Positions 11,465 through 45,022 of a stretch of 64,000 bases of DNA are shown one piece after another. Every line of letters starts with the position of its first letter. Position 1 is the stretch's first letter. Source of the stretch: Mucilaginibacter flavus (GTDB taxonomy: Bacteria > Bacteroidota > Bacteroidia > Sphingobacteriales > Sphingobacteriaceae); NCBI RefSeq assembly GCF_030409315.1, contig NZ_JAUFPS010000014.1, positions 62,001 through 126,000 on the forward strand, written 5' to 3'. The notes beneath the pieces were generated by a model that was not told the DNA's origin, did not search any database, and saw only the letters and a list, made by a program, of their open reading frames with translations. The position numbers and the translations under genes are program-made.

Positions 11465-11470
11465 GTATTA

Positions 11471-11605
11471 ATTATTGAATTATTGATTTACTGAATTACT
11501 GAGTTTTATATTGAAGAACACCTGGGTTAATAAACTTTACGCAAAGTAAAATACATGTAAAATGAGCCAGGATTCGATAATTCAATAAATCAGTAATTCA
11601 ATAAT
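11471..11605. repeat. Inverted pair of octamer arrays, (ATTAYTGA)4 ... (TCARTAAT)4
   Basis: At 11471-11502 four 8-base words follow each other: ATTATTGA, ATTATTGA, TTTACTGA, ATTACTGA. At 11574-11605 the complementary words TCGATAAT, TCAATAAA, TCAGTAAT, TCAATAAT follow. Together they could form an imperfect 32-bp stem around about 70 bases in the gap between the FMN reductase and parA. Confidence 0.75.
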
Positions 11606-11762
11606 TGCCTTAATTATGTTTGTAAATTGACTAAACCTGTGGATTTCCTAATTGTTTAATTCCGTATCTTTACGCATTAGAATAAAACTTTACGAAAGTA
11701 GAATTTCTAAAGCTACTTTACGTTATTATAAATCATCGTAATATCAAATATATACATATAGA

Positions 11763-30724: not shown

Positions 30725-32107
30725 TTAAATGAAGCGGGAGATAAAGTCAGGGTAGATACCGATGATGATGGTAGCTAAAGCGCTAACTGCAAATACTACC
30801 TTATAATAGGCCGGTACCACCAGTTCAGTACGATCTGCACTGCGGAAATACATGGCCACAATAACCCTGAAATAGTAAAAGATACTGATGATGGCATTGA
30901 TAACCGCTATAATAACCAACCAAAACTGGTACCTGCTTAACGCGCCGGTAAACATAAAAAACTTACCTATAAACCCAGCTGTAAGCGGGATACCTGCCAA
31001 TGAGAGCATGGCTACCGTTAATACCAGGGCCAGGAAAGGGTTCTTTTTAGCTAAACCGTTAAAGCTTTCAAAGTTATCATTACCGCTTTGCTGCTGTACC
31101 AATATTAGTCCTCCAAAAGCGATGATAGATGCCACCGAATAAGCCGTAGCATAAATAAATACCGAGTTGGCGGATGCAGCACCTAAGGCCACAATAGCAA
31201 ACAACAGGTAGCCGGCGTGCGAGATACTGGAGAAAGCCAGCATGCGTTTAAAGCTTTGCTGATACAGCGCGGTAATGTTGCCAATAAACAAGGTAGCTAC
31301 CGTAATCACCAATAATATAGGTGCCCAGAAATCTGAAAGTGGTGCAAAACAAGCCGAGAATAAACGAAGGAATACCGCGAAGCCTGCAGTTTTTACTACT
31401 GTTGACATGAAAGCGGTGATCAAAGTTGGTGAGCCTTCGTACACATCCGGGGTCCAGAAGTGGAATGGAGCGGCGCCAACTTTAAAGCATAAGCCTACAA
31501 TGATTAAACCGATACCGGTGTAAAACATAGGGTCGATATGCGGATGAGCCAAAACCCAGTCGCGGATAACTTCCACGCTGAATGAACCGGTAGAGCCGTA
31601 AATTAAAGTAATACCAAACAACAGGAAGCCTGTTGAAAAAGCCCCCATTAAAAAGTATTTCAAAGCGGCTTCGTTTGAAGCAAAATCGTTTTTCTTGATC
31701 CCGGCCAGAATGTATAAACTTACCGACATGATTTCAATACCGATAAACATCATGGTAAGGTTATAGTAAGAAACCATTACAATGATACCTGCCAGGGAGA
31801 ACAACATAATGGCATAATACTCGGCCACGTGGTTGCTGATCTTTTCAAAATATCCTCCGGATAGTAATACAATTAGTATAGTGGTAATAATAGCGATAGA
31901 AGAAAACACAACCGAAAAGTTGTTAAACAACATCATACCATGGTAAATAGGCACCGCTGTATCCGGAGTTTTATATTCCGCAATAGCGAAACCCAGGGCA
32001 GCAATTAAGCCGATAACGGTAACCGGTAACAAAGCCTTGGTAGCTTTGTATAAACCCAGGTAAAGTAATATTATCGGTAAAACAGATATAATGATTAAAG
32101 TAGTCAT
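30725..32107 (-). CDS. nuoN: NADH-quinone oxidoreductase subunit N
   Basis: One of three antiporter-like proton-pumping subunits of complex I in the inner membrane. 460 aa and about 14 hydrophobic segments. The antiporter signature surrounds FHFWTPDVYEGSPTLITAFMSTVVKTAGF, with the conserved Lys and Glu pattern, and SLAGIPLTAGFIGKFFMF follows. It is the last nuo gene, separated from nuoM by about 570 bases that hold a foreign-looking four-helix-bundle gene and two heptamer arrays. Confidence 0.95.
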   Translation of the reverse strand: MTTLIIISVLPIILLYLGLYKATKALLPVTVIGLIAALGFAIAEYKTPDTAVPIYHGMMLFNNFSVVFSSIAIITTILIVLLSGGYFEKISNHVAEYYAIMLFSLAGIIVMVSYYNLTMMFIGIEIMSVSLYILAGIKKNDFASNEAALKYFLMGAFSTGFLLFGITLIYGSTGSFSVEVIRDWVLAHPHIDPMFYTGIGLIIVGLCFKVGAAPFHFWTPDVYEGSPTLITAFMSTVVKTAGFAVFLRLFSACFAPLSDFWAPILLVITVATLFIGNITALYQQSFKRMLAFSSISHAGYLLFAIVALGAASANSVFIYATAYSVASIIAFGGLILVQQQSGNDNFESFNGLAKKNPFLALVLTVAMLSLAGIPLTAGFIGKFFMFTGALSRYQFWLVIIAVINAIISIFYYFRVIVAMYFRSADRTELVVPAYYKVVFAVSALATIIIGIYPDFISRFI

Positions 32108-32111
32108 TTTC

Positions 32112-32181
32112 TTAAACTCTAAGTTCTAATCTCTAAATTCTAATCTCTAAATTCTAAACTTTAACCTCTAAACTTCAAAAG
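32112..32181. repeat. Heptamer-phased array, ten words (CTAAATT/CTAATCT/CTAAACT)
   Basis: Read from 32112 in steps of seven: TTAAACT, CTAAGTT, CTAATCT, CTAAATT, CTAATCT, CTAAATT, CTAAACT, TTAACCT, CTAAACT, TCAAAAG. It directly abuts the nuoN start. An array of complementary words lies on the other side of the four-helix-bundle gene (32646-32680). Confidence 0.75.
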
Positions 32182-32236
32182 CTATTGATTAAATTCTAAA
32201 ATCCAATTTTAAAATTCTTTTGTTTGGGTATTTTGT

Positions 32237-32605
32237 TTAATTACTATTTTTTGTTTTTTCAAGGATCGCTCCGAAGATCTTCGTCAATTCAATTGTTTCC
32301 TGAATTAGCGCCTCTCTCGTTAACTCTTGTTGTTCGTTTATATCTACAAGCCTGAGCCACAATCTGCTTTCTTTAGCTTCTTTCCTGCAAATCTTTACTT
32401 TATGCACAAAATCATTCCGGCTGAAGCTTTCGTTTGCCTCTATAAAGTTTGCCGCAACTGAACCTGATGATCGAATCAATTGCCTGTAATATTCATTATT
32501 ATGAATATTTTTATCTATCCTTTTTAAAAACTCTTTACAATTATTGGCAAATTCATAAGTTCTATCTTCCAGATTGAACTTTTTTTCCTTGAACTCACCT
32601 TCCAT
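32237..32605 (-). CDS. Four-helix-bundle protein (23S rRNA intervening-sequence/Avd-like family)
   Basis: A 122-residue, highly charged, helical protein of the family first found in intervening sequences of 23S rRNA genes and related to the Avd accessory protein of diversity-generating retroelements. The family core QLIRSSGSVAANFIEANES (about 42-60) and the helix DFVHKVKICRKEAKESRLWLRLV are clear. Members are thought to form pentameric barrels and bind nucleic acid; the function of free-standing copies is unknown. It interrupts the nuo operon between nuoM and nuoN in the same direction and is bordered by oppositely oriented heptamer arrays. No reverse transcriptase or rRNA gene is present. 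Confidence 0.88.
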   Translation of the reverse strand: MEGEFKEKKFNLEDRTYEFANNCKEFLKRIDKNIHNNEYYRQLIRSSGSVAANFIEANESFSRNDFVHKVKICRKEAKESRLWLRLVDINEQQELTREALIQETIELTKIFGAILEKTKNSN

Positions 32606-32645
32606 TTCTCTTTCTAAACTACAATTTGATCTTTCCCGAATTACC

Positions 32646-32680
32646 TTTTAGAATTTAGAAATTAGTTTTTAGAGCTTAAA
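32646..32680. repeat. Heptamer-phased array (TTTTAGA ATTTAGA AATTAGT TTTTAGA GCTTAAA)
   Basis: Five 7-base words, complementary in type to those at 32112-32181. The last overlaps the nuoM stop codon. Coordinates may be off by one. Confidence 0.65.
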
Positions 32681-34151
32681 ATACCAGCTTCCCGTTGAGT
32701 GTATTCATCAAATTAGTAACCGCGGCTTCAGATATGTGTAATATCGGTTGCGGGTACACGCCTATTACAATAATTAACGCGCAGATGATACCTAACACTA
32801 ATTGCTCAGATCCGGTGATGTCTGTAAACTTAGCGGTTAGTTCGTTAACCTCGCCTTGCATTACATTTTTGTACATGCGTAACATGTACACGGCACCCAG
32901 AATAATGGTTGAACCCGCGAAAATTACAATGGTAAGATTTTGGTAATGCGCCGCGCTGTAATTAAACATGCTGCCTATTAACAAAAACTCGCCCACAAAA
33001 CCGTTAGTTAACGGCAAGCCTACTGTGCCTAATACTATAATTAAAAACGCGATTGCAAATTTAGGAGCCACTTTAGCTATACCACCAAGCTGACTGATAT
33101 CGCGGGTGCCTAAACGCCTGCTGATGATATCCCAGATAAAGAACATCCCTATTACATTGATACCATGACTTAGCATTTGTACCAAAGCACCTTGTAAGCC
33201 CTGTATATTCCAAACAAATATGCCGGCTGCGATAAGACCAACGTGTGCTATTGATGAGTAAGCAACCAGGCGCTTTCCATCTTTTTGATTAAAAGCGATG
33301 ATGGAAGCGTATACAATACCGATAACTGCCAAAATGGTAATCAACGTTTGCCAGTGAACCAAACCAAGCGGGGCATTAGGTATTAACCAACGGATAACAC
33401 CATATACACCCATTTTAAGCATGATACCCGATAACATCATGGTACCACCTGTAGGCGCTTCGGTATAAGTATCGGGCTGCCAGGTGTGGAAAGGGAATAC
33501 CGGCATCTTAATGGCAAATGCCAGGAAGAATGCTAAAAACACCCACGATTGCTGCGGAGCAGTTAATTTTAAAGCATAAAAAGTATGAATGCTAAATGTT
33601 TTATCCGGCGATTGCAGGTACAGGTAGATCAACGCTACCAGCATAAACAACGAGCCTGCAAACGTATAGATGAAAAACTTAAGCGTAATGCGGATGCGGT
33701 TTTCGCCACCCCAAAGTGCACAGATAAAATAGATAGGGATTAACGCCGCTTCCCAGCCAACGTAAAACAGGAAGCCATCTAAAGCGGTAAATACCACCAG
33801 CATACCAGCCTGCATAAATAATATCAGGGCATAAAACGCGCCCGAGTTTTTATACTCGTGGTTAAAGGTGCTCAAAATGATAAGCGGTACCAGTATGGTA
33901 GTTAACAATACCATAATCATGCTAATGCCGTCTATCCCGGCACTAAAGTAAATGCCAAACTTAGCTATCCATGGTACATCAATACCAAACTGTGTAGTTG
34001 CGTCGGGTACAAACTTGCTTAAAAACAGACCTGCTATTGCCAGTTCGGCAATAGAGAAAAATAAAGCGGCGTATCTGGCTGCCGAATTTTTCAAAAAGGC
34101 AACTATAACTGCGGCTATTACCGGTAAAAAAATTAATATACTAACGGTCAT
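32676..34151 (-). CDS. nuoM: NADH-quinone oxidoreductase subunit M
   Basis: Antiporter-like proton-pumping subunit of complex I. 491 aa, about 14 membrane segments. Key elements are VGWEAALIPIYFICALWGGENR (conserved Glu), FAIKMPVFPFHTWQPDTYTEAPTGGTMMLSGIMLKMGVYG and FNQKDGKRLVAYSSIAHVGL. It begins 24 bases downstream of nuoL and its 3' end carries a heptamer array. Confidence 0.96.
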   Translation of the reverse strand: MTVSILIFLPVIAAVIVAFLKNSAARYAALFFSIAELAIAGLFLSKFVPDATTQFGIDVPWIAKFGIYFSAGIDGISMIMVLLTTILVPLIILSTFNHEYKNSGAFYALILFMQAGMLVVFTALDGFLFYVGWEAALIPIYFICALWGGENRIRITLKFFIYTFAGSLFMLVALIYLYLQSPDKTFSIHTFYALKLTAPQQSWVFLAFFLAFAIKMPVFPFHTWQPDTYTEAPTGGTMMLSGIMLKMGVYGVIRWLIPNAPLGLVHWQTLITILAVIGIVYASIIAFNQKDGKRLVAYSSIAHVGLIAAGIFVWNIQGLQGALVQMLSHGINVIGMFFIWDIISRRLGTRDISQLGGIAKVAPKFAIAFLIIVLGTVGLPLTNGFVGEFLLIGSMFNYSAAHYQNLTIVIFAGSTIILGAVYMLRMYKNVMQGEVNELTAKFTDITGSEQLVLGIICALIIVIGVYPQPILHISEAAVTNLMNTLNGKLVF

Positions 34152-36089: not shown

Positions 36090-36098
36090 GTGTCCTTG

Positions 36099-36126
36099 TT
36101 ATACGTGTTACGTTCTACGTGATACG
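36099..36126. repeat. Heptamer-phased array (TTATACG TGTTACG TTCTACG TGATACG)
   Basis: Four words of pattern TNNTACG immediately upstream of the nuoL start. Period is exactly seven. Confidence 0.7.
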
Positions 36127-36175
36127 TTTTTATTTATCTGATCGTTAAAGCGAACTTTCAATTCCTGATCTGTAT

Positions 36176-36207
36176 ATCGGGGATTGCTTCGTTCCTCGCA
36201 ATGACGG
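36176..36207. repeat. Half copy of the GATTGCTTCGTTCCTCGCAATGACG palindrome
   Basis: Contains the right arm of the 39799-39882 palindrome without a left arm. Confidence 0.7.
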
Positions 36208-36230
36208 TTTGTTATATATTTATTATGCTT

Positions 36231-36265
36231 TCAAATCCGAAATCGAAATTCCGAACTCCGAAATC
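36231..36265. repeat. Heptamer-phased array (TCAAATC CGAAATC GAAATTC CGAACTC CGAAATC)
   Basis: Five 7-base words just downstream of the nuoK stop. Different word from the neighbouring array, same period. Confidence 0.7.
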
Positions 36266-39696: not shown

Positions 39697-39717
39697 TTAT
39701 ATATAACGTCCTTGTAT

Positions 39718-39759
39718 AAACTCTAAATTCTAAATTCTAATTTCTAAACCCTAAAGTTT
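39718..39759. repeat. Heptamer-phased array (AAACTCT AAATTCT AAATTCT AATTTCT AAACCCT AAAGTTT)
   Basis: Six 7-base words upstream of nuoG; same word family as 32112-32181. Confidence 0.72.
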
Positions 39760-41257: not shown

Positions 41258-41337
41258 TTTAATTTCTAAACTCTAAAAGGTAAAATTCTATTTTTTAAAT
41301 TATCTAAAACCTAAGTTCTAAATCCTAAACTCTAAAA
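41258..41337. repeat. Interrupted heptamer array (TTCTAAA CTCTAAA ... CCTAAGT TCTAAAT CCTAAAC TCTAAAA)
   Basis: Two runs of TCTAAA-type words upstream of nuoF, separated by about 30 bases of AT-rich sequence that only partly keeps the phase. Confidence 0.6.
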
Positions 41338-43176: not shown

Positions 43177-43265
43177 GAGTCGAGAACCGGGAATCAAGAG
43201 ATAGTTACAGTTGTATTTCGTTTTATTTATTTCTTGACTCTTGATTCTTATATCTTGATTCTATA
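43177..43265. repeat. Inverted pair of heptamer arrays (GAGTCGA.../...TTCTTGA CTCTTGA)
   Basis: Left run 43177-43204: GAGTCGA, GAACCGG, GAATCAA, GAGATAG. Right run 43231-43265: TTCTTGA, CTCTTGA, TTCTTAT, ATCTTGA, TTCTATA. The two are complementary in word type and could fold into an imperfect hairpin in the nuoC-nuoD gap. Confidence 0.72.
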
Positions 43266-44818: not shown

Positions 44819-44825
44819 GTAGAAA

Positions 44826-44874
44826 GAATCAAGAATTTAGAGTCAAGAATCAAGAGGCAAGAATCAAGATAAAA
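44826..44874. repeat. Heptamer-phased array, seven words (GAATCAA GAATTTA GAGTCAA ...)
   Basis: GAATCAA, GAATTTA, GAGTCAA, GAATCAA, GAGGCAA, GAATCAA, GATAAAA in perfect 7-base phase upstream of nuoA. Complementary words lie at 44995-45022. Confidence 0.78.
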
Positions 44875-44953
44875 CTTCTTTTAGTTGAGCAGCTTTATAT
44901 TGATTGCATTCAATATCCTTTTACGAAAAGGACTACCGGAAGCCATATTTAAA

Positions 44954-44999
44954 ACAAAAAAAGAGCCAAGACTCAGAGAAACGCATTTCTCCAGTCTTG
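44954..44999 (-). terminator. Intrinsic terminator of the exbB-TPR operon
   Basis: On the minus strand CAAGACT...AGAAA pairs with TTTCT...AGTCTTG around a 4-base loop, followed by GGCTCTTTTTTTG. It lies about 30 bases beyond the TPR gene stop. Confidence 0.8.
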
Positions 45000-45022
45000 A
45001 CTCTTGATTCTTGATTCTAAAA
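44995..45022. repeat. Heptamer-phased array (TCTTGAC TCTTGAT TCTTGAT TCTAAAA)
   Basis: Four words complementary to those at 44826-44874, partly overlapping the terminator stem. Confidence 0.65.

Follow-up and report, generated by a model that had tools for sequence, protein, structure and literature searches.

In the gap between nuoM and nuoN of Mucilaginibacter flavus lies a gene for a four-helix-bundle (4HB) protein, and this gene is bracketed by two arrays of a heptameric word which are inverted to each other. We found that most 4HB genes in our samples, one from the genus and one of named loci from mixed phyla, are bracketed by inverted heptad arms, and that arm-spacer-arm cassettes with shared words and no gene are dispersed in the genome. 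The explanation that we consider probable is that the 4HB (S23/IVP) gene and its two inverted heptad arms form an inserted element, with the anatomy of an IVS and an organisation resembling that of REPINs and RAYTs. The movement of such an element is inferred from its distribution and was not seen.

A four-helix-bundle gene between nuoM and nuoN

The features of this junction are given below with their positions in the window, which is the whole stretch of 64,000 nucleotides that was analysed. The names nuoM and nuoN, and those of the other nuo genes, are presumed ones; no family search was run on nuoM and nuoN.

30725 to 32107, minus strand: nuoN (presumed name), downstream neighbour
32113 to 32174, plus strand: downstream arm (in the sense of the gene), 8.9 heptads, inverted relative to the upstream arm
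32237 to 32605, minus strand: 4HB gene (S23 / 23S rRNA IVP family, from profile and model), 122 aa, stop codon included
32647 to 32681, minus strand: upstream arm (in the sense of the gene), about five heptads of TCTAAAWT type, overlapping the end of nuoM
32676 to 34151, minus strand: nuoM (presumed name), upstream neighbour

The gap measures 568 bases in this genome, and the preliminary description, which put about 570 bases between the two genes at 32112-32680, had its coordinates right. It also proposed an IVS/Avd-like four-helix-bundle gene in the gap. In a profile search the protein passes the cut-offs of both TIGR02436 (62.2 bits, cut-off 24) and PF05635 (46.5 bits, cut-off 33.8), the latter being its sole Pfam match. 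The AlphaFold2 model consists of four helices with a pLDDT of 91.3, and the closest folds found by Foldseek are those of the PDB entries 2RLD and 2GSC, of which 2RLD also matches the protein by sequence (E 6.6e-11). The protein is an S23/IVP-type four-helix bundle. Its likeness to Avd (4DWL and 8UB7) is weak, with Foldseek E-values of 0.05 and more and TM-scores of about 0.6-0.7, and Avd ranks below a pectin methylesterase inhibitor among the fold matches of the model.

The oppositely oriented heptamer arrays that had been noticed on either side of the gene are indeed present. The left array has a period of 7/14 and covers 32113-32174, and the right one covers 32647-32673, extended to 32681 by an inverted-repeat search. 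In this search the two period-7 arms are mutually inverted over 35 nt, 86% complementary and 488 nt apart, and the right arm runs over the last bases of the nuoM ORF (ORF end 32676). Chance repeats were rejected by shuffling and by controls with sliding cores and non-4HB ORFs. In fact, TCTAAWYTCTAAW with at most one mismatch occurs 17 times in the 64-kb window against 1.03 expected from shuffling, and among 156 sliding cores of 320 bp in the window only that of the nuo 4HB gene is bracketed by inverted matches scoring at least 28. The arms pair in the predicted transcript, with an MFE of -134.2 kcal/mol (z -4.57 against 20 shuffles).

No rRNA match was found within 31500-33300, and the gene stands between nuoM and nuoN, not in a 23S rRNA helix. 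A reverse transcriptase gene beside it was not noticed in the ORF lists of 28-46 kb, for which no profile search was made. A known RNA family at the locus was rejected, with one sub-threshold chance match only.

Inverted arms around other four-helix-bundle genes

The arm score is that of a local alignment between the upstream flank of a gene and the reverse complement of its downstream flank. The threshold of 28 was fixed after the first comparison, made on the loci of this genome, and the 4HB loci of the genus and the phylum are mostly the best-scoring ones and not a random draw. L142, a repeat of L073, and L152 were excluded from the 77 genus loci. For four copies with an inner stop (L009, L077, L130 and L134), one flank was misplaced in the scripts based on ORF ends, which lowers the counts in the word-protein, paralogue, gene-less match, same-site, G.U and non-4HB ORF comparisons.

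The profile search found ten TIGR02436 genes in this genome. Inverted short-period arms are visible by eye at all ten, with differing words and some with a period of 8 or 9; nine of the loci score at least 28 and the tenth scores 26. Other copies without flanking arrays, which would have refuted the preliminary description, were therefore not met with. Across the genus 66 of the 77 loci reach the threshold, compared with 7.3% of swapped pairs and with 9/77 in direct orientation. The 4HB family was detected in 88 of the 118 genomes of a phylum sample, where 17 of 30 loci, one per genome, score at least 28 (swaps 2.0%; direct 3/30). Of 32 plasmid records with a relative, 14 were analysed, 13 of them cyanobacterial and one from Bernardetia. 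Ten of these 14 loci score at least 28, two of them barely (29 and 30), and short arrays are visible by eye at the four others; 5% of the plasmid swaps reach 33, since words are common to several loci.

The named mixed-phyla loci were obtained by a contig scan with an alignment of 13 cyanobacterial proteins. Of the best 80 of 584 such loci, 60 score at least 28 (swaps 2.3%; direct 9/80), and a split by record titles gives 42/52 outside Bacteroidota and 18/28 inside. Two xanthomonad loci among these best 80, L243 and L260, have GGGGACC arms. The threshold is missed by 13 of the 30 loci from the phylum, by 20 of the best 80 of 584 named loci and by four of the 14 plasmid loci. As controls, it is reached by 6 of 243 non-4HB ORFs with a length of 70-199 aa and by 8 of 490 that are longer, against 61 of the 77 4HB loci by the same measure, and 22 of 2117 sliding cores are bracketed at it.

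The arms of one locus match each other and usually do not match those of other loci. A single shared transposon end was rejected, because the words vary between copies. Nor is the nuo word enriched in the genome as a whole: TCTAAWYTCTAAW has 13 matches against 22 for the reversed control and is clustered in the nuo operon only.

The locus L107 (genome G103) has arms of GCGAGCG type, and its 4HB match is overlapped by a long open frame that, from the way it reads, is presumably a restriction-modification methylase.

Correspondence between words and proteins

Words were counted as agreeing at a score of 35 or more, in pairs of loci whose flanks are non-homologous by tblastx. Neither the pairs nor the genomes are independent in these comparisons. 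At non-homologous sites, 80% of the 59 pairs with a protein identity of at least 0.7 agree in word, followed by 26% of the 117 pairs at 0.55-0.7 and 0-1% of the 2575 pairs below. The rank correlation of protein identity with word is small (0.13) and was reached by none of 500 permutations. Judged by sequence, 4HB proteins that closely resemble each other mostly have their word in common even at unrelated sites. Within single genomes, none of the 85 pairs below 0.5 identity agree, and of the nine paralogue pairs at 0.5 or above one does, namely L006/L007 (74% identical). The words of one within-genome pair at 73% identity disagree.

A rough tally was made for the AGTATCA-type 32-mer, which has at least five copies in 9 of 11 genomes with a cognate 4HB (broken copies included) and in 4 of 20 without. 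The exceptions are G022, with 150 copies and no cognate 4HB, and G011 and G024, with a cognate 4HB and no copies. Word copy number does not strictly follow the cognate 4HB.

Pairing of the arms in DNA and RNA

An unlikely alternative, and the best surviving one, is that the element works at the level of RNA as an IVS outside rRNA. RNase III would then cut the stem of the transcript and free the neighbouring cistrons, and the 4HB protein would be a passenger or an RNA-binder. The pairing of the arms in the predicted RNA agrees with this, as does the anatomy, which is that of 23S IVSs; excision by RNase III has been shown in vitro for that of Coxiella burnetii (PMC4990558). However, the arm mismatches on the coding strand, counted over 136 of 197 loci with L088, L090, L107 and L108 excluded, comprise 180 G.U and 193 A.C, whereas the control, the terminator-like hairpins of this genome, has 29 G.U and 14 A.C (p 0.03). 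Selection on a sense-RNA stem was rejected for want of a G.U bias in the mismatches. Moreover, the dN/dS of the nuo copy (see below) indicates that the protein matters, which also speaks against the RNA-level reading.

Since the arms have no G.U excess, matching at the DNA level is favoured, and the pairing of the arms seems to be kept there, through recognition, copying or both. RNase III cutting as a consequence is not excluded by the lack of bias. The arms also have a polarity: on the coding strand, the upstream arm is richer in G than in C in 54 of 58 genus loci, one locus is a tie, and three, including the nuo copy, have the reverse polarity (C > G). The other nuo copies share this reverse polarity.

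Gene-less arrays and turnover at single junctions

The array survey covered 861,132 bases of this genome. It found 63 period-7 segments against one in shuffled sequence, 26 against none with period 8 and 40 against none with period 14, while periods 9 and 15 gave seven segments each and the other tested periods 0-2. Merging resulted in 134 arrays, the commonest length class of which is four units (56/134). Inverted pairs less than 700 bp apart number 38, of which 33 are gene-less and five have a 4HB gene, and arrays without a 4HB gene are much commoner than arrays with one. The spacers of the gene-less pairs are mutually unrelated by eye, and AAGA[CT] and [AG]TCTT stand on the inner side in 12 of the 38 inverted pairs. 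As only one of the 134 arrays has a G4 motif, G-quadruplex formation was rejected as their general cause.

The arms of the ten 4HB genes of this genome match 53 of 124 gene-less arrays, compared with 0.1 for shuffled arms. Ten foreign 4HBs drawn at random match a mean of 34.0 arrays (sd 11.5), and the 53 is equalled or exceeded in 62 of 1000 draws, so the excess of this genome's own arms at that threshold is weak. At the strictest threshold the own arms match 45 gene-less arrays against 19.5 for random 4HBs (sd 7.6; 0/1000 draws). One 32-mer arm, with at most three mismatches, has 52 copies in this genome and 150 in G022 and was found in 16 of 31 genomes; its reversed control has no copies. 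In 12 genomes the number of 4HB genes was not significantly correlated with array density (Spearman 0.43, p 0.16). The lowest densities of the 12, 2.1 and 0.8 per 100 kb, are those of G036 and G048, one of which is without any 4HB match and the other has a single 4HB.

Gene-less arrays and arm pairs of the window include the following.

11470 to 11606: gene-less inverted arm pair with the 8-base AATTATTG word, as in the 4HB locus L008 of this genome
39717 to 39755, plus strand: gene-less array with the TCTAAAT word, as at the nuo 4HB gene, nuoF-nuoG junction
41260 to 41336, plus strand: gene-less arrays with the TCTAAAT word, nuoE-nuoF junction
44824 to 45021, no strand assigned: gene-less inverted arm pair with a AGAATCAAG-type word, upstream of nuoA

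Period-7 arrays with differing words stand at further nuo junctions (36098-36265, 39717-39755, 41260-41336, 43214-43262 and 44824-45021 of the window). The nuoK-nuoL junction has two arms of unlike words, which are kept in three species. At the nuoE-nuoF junction of G022, the site of 41260-41336 here, there is a 361-base stretch without arms which contains an open frame for about 119 residues, many of them basic, and which is absent from G056, G020 and G042. The arms around nuoH in a second nuo cluster (C19:195041-196200) lie in two separate gaps and were rejected as a cassette.

A junction that carries a 4HB element in one species may have another cassette in its relative, or be empty there. 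The junction C6:51685-51763 has an arm-spacer-arm structure in five species with two word types, AGTATCA in two species and AGAGTCA/AGAATCA in three, and the arms match within each species. At C6:55426, word and spacer are common to two species and a third has a different word. The 4HB element of G013 has the AGATTTG word, and the same site in G031 and G017 (flanks 86-97% identical) holds a short gene-less pair with another word, together with a scrap of the AGATTTG word. The nuoF-nuoG junction, which in this genome has the array only, contains a different 4HB gene in G022, with arms of its own (score 53). Among 152 same-site pairs of 4HB loci, own arms fit each other more closely than they fit the arms of another species in 105 and less closely in 42, and the preference holds in 9 of 12 same-site groups. 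Own arms are also better matched at 4/4 gene-less sites with at least two species (five examined).

REP-like inverted pairs of CCCCCTGAAGGGGG type occur in G056 and G022 at the gap edges orthologous to C6:55426 and C6:98098-98265 (window 36098-36265), and at C6:55426 that of G056 is in place of heptamer arms. The corresponding places in other species are occupied by heptamer arms, which gives the impression of two repeat systems sharing their sites. Positions 486-586 of L060 (G013) belong to a dispersed high-copy repeat of about 100 bases, with dozens of matches each in G013, G031 and G017.

The arms might also be passive hairpins, made by slippage and template switching at gene edges, with 4HB genes tolerated in or inserted into their loops. 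We regard this as more doubtful still than action in RNA. Gene-less pairs are in the majority, every pair at the junction of the five species is self-matching in spite of two word types, and the better match of own arms, both in the same-site pairs and at the gene-less sites, is what arm-by-arm correction predicts. However, passive hairpins do not account for why 4HB genes are bracketed rather than other small genes, nor for the sharing of words by similar 4HB proteins at unrelated sites.

Distribution and conservation of the nuo copy

We read 30 nuoM-nuoN junctions, taken from the best NuoN loci among 61 genomes searched. The 4HB gene is present in four (this genome, G056, G044 and G004), and the remaining 26 have gaps of 0-66 bases without it, among which the 55-base gap of G020 has kept heptamers. 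A protein search found the nuo 4HB in 7 of 100 genus genomes. In six of these seven, nuoM and nuoN flank the gene on either side, and in G051 nuoM adjoins it and the contig stops where nuoN would start; in the seven genomes of the 100 that have it, it was found at no other junction. The presence of the gene in all relatives would have contradicted the preliminary description, and with 4/30 junctions and 7/100 genus genomes this is not the situation. The arms of all nuo copies have a similar word in the same sense, which is degenerate in G192. In G192 the gene itself is split in two, and in G056 it has a late stop.

For the three of 15 pairs with estimable dS, the dN/dS of the nuo 4HB is 0.04-0.09, and for the other pairs pN is far below pS. 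Combining the low dN/dS with the losses and broken copies, we take the nuo copy to be patchy and decaying in places, yet with a protein that, by these ratios, is under purifying selection. No target-site duplication was noticed by eye at the nuo sites or at the G013/G031/G017 junction. That the gene is a domesticated resident regulator of the nuo operon, with arrays made by local slippage, would suit the purifying selection, the occurrence of this kind of 4HB at nuoM-nuoN only and the arrays at several nuo junctions, but it is very improbable with 93 of the 100 genus genomes giving no match to this 4HB under the E-value applied, copies in pieces (G192) or with a late stop (G056), and the same layout around 4HB genes at unrelated loci.

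The preliminary description went on to suggest an inserted unit ended by heptamer arrays. The patchy occurrence and the arms at other copies support the insertion, but there is no single shared end sequence and arrays without the gene are commoner. For its further suggestion of a minimal mobile or domesticated element, the distribution fits insertion, whereas movement is an inference only and the nuo copy is confined to one junction.

A possible mechanism

In the inserted element that we favour, the arms would commonly have four heptads (about 32 nt), and the 4HB protein would stand in the place of a transposase. The protein may recognise the arms of its own word, as DNA or as a DNA hairpin, although this is inferred without binding data, and the most economical guess is that host enzymes do the cutting and copying. 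In this way both 4HB elements and gene-less cassettes could be spread from one gene junction to another, by analogy with the role proposed for RAYTs in the dispersal of REPINs; this is again inferred. The nuo copy would be an old resident, inherited and often lost, whose protein is still selected. RNase III might act on its long mRNA stem in the manner known from 23S IVSs, a side effect that would let the element live in an operon. Direct movement, target duplication or a catalytic residue was not seen at the loci examined, and the nuo 4HB is known from one junction only.

A wider proposal is possible, and we offer it tentatively, with somewhat less than even confidence. S23/IVP 4HB genes may be the core of a bacteria-wide mobile system that has no recognisable transposase and in which every 4HB subfamily has a heptad word of its own, which it recognises, spreads in the form of arm-4HB-arm units and drives gene-less cassettes in trans; the known heptamer arrays of cyanobacteria, Xanthomonas and Bacteroidota would be its traces and 23S IVSs the members that landed in rRNA.

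Relation to known systems

Like the IVSs of 23S rRNA, the nuo element has an S23-family 4HB ORF in a loop closed by complementary ends, and in the IVS of Coxiella burnetii the stem measures 28 bp and heptameric repeats precede the S23p ORF (PMC4990558). Unlike them, it lies between protein genes, the words vary by locus, and gene-less cassettes are dispersed. Structures of S23/IVP proteins are solved but no function is known for them, and a homopentamer is reported for Xcc0516 of the S23 family (PMC4990558). Solved relatives of the present protein are pentamers. As with REPINs and RAYTs, short inverted doublets separated by a spacer are scattered over extragenic regions, and a protein gene is accompanied by repeats of its own kind, but the protein here is an S23-family 4HB without a tyrosine (Y1) transposase match and the arms are heptad arrays, not palindromic REPs (PMC3116915). 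Because one defining feature of each system was tested and not met, the nuo element is IVS-like and REPIN-like and a member of neither. Avd of the diversity-generating retroelements has a similar, weakly matched fold, but the neighbours here are nuoM and nuoN.

Several phyla have heptamer arrays in abundance, for which there is no explanation so far (PMC4692102, PMC4679880). Those of Xanthomonas and Nostoc are intergenic, and G-quadruplexes were proposed for them; the GGGAATC arrays of Xanthomonas prefer four units and form 70 and 75 convergent pairs in two genomes (PMC4692102). TAACTGA arrays occur in Beggiatoaceae, cyanobacteria and Bacteroidetes (PMC4679880). The arrays described here are likewise intergenic, of period 7 and most often of four units, but the published accounts make no link to S23/4HB genes in the parts examined (PMC4692102, PMC4679880). 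By analogy, the GGGAATC convergent pairs look like the gene-less form of the 4HB element (PMC4692102). The reading of four-unit arrays as G-quadruplexes is not general, given the single G4 motif among the arrays of this genome.

Heptamer arrays and S23 genes are each already known, and the new point is the general link between both. In the open-access literature (subscription journals were not covered) we found no paper connecting 4HB/S23 genes with inverted heptamer arms in general, the lone precedent found being the heptamers in a single 23S IVS (PMC4990558). An unexplained protein family is thus tied to an unexplained class of bacterial repeats, which makes one testable problem of two old puzzles, and should the correspondence of word and protein reflect recognition, it could be examined directly by a binding assay.

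IVP genes have also been described in CRISPR-cas loci, with 18 genes beside cas4 and cas6 (PMC3936711), and the family is also named in the legend of a figure elsewhere (PMC10910872). Arm-bracketed 4HB elements may be the ordinary reason for such published IVP genes in cas loci.

Three of the cyanobacterial plasmid 4HB loci, L154, L156 and L163, are situated in cas loci, two of them with cas6 and cas4 on either side and the third with cas10 and a cmr3-like gene. All three have inverted arms, with scores of 61 and 56 at cas6-cas4 and 29 at cas10 and the cmr3-like gene.
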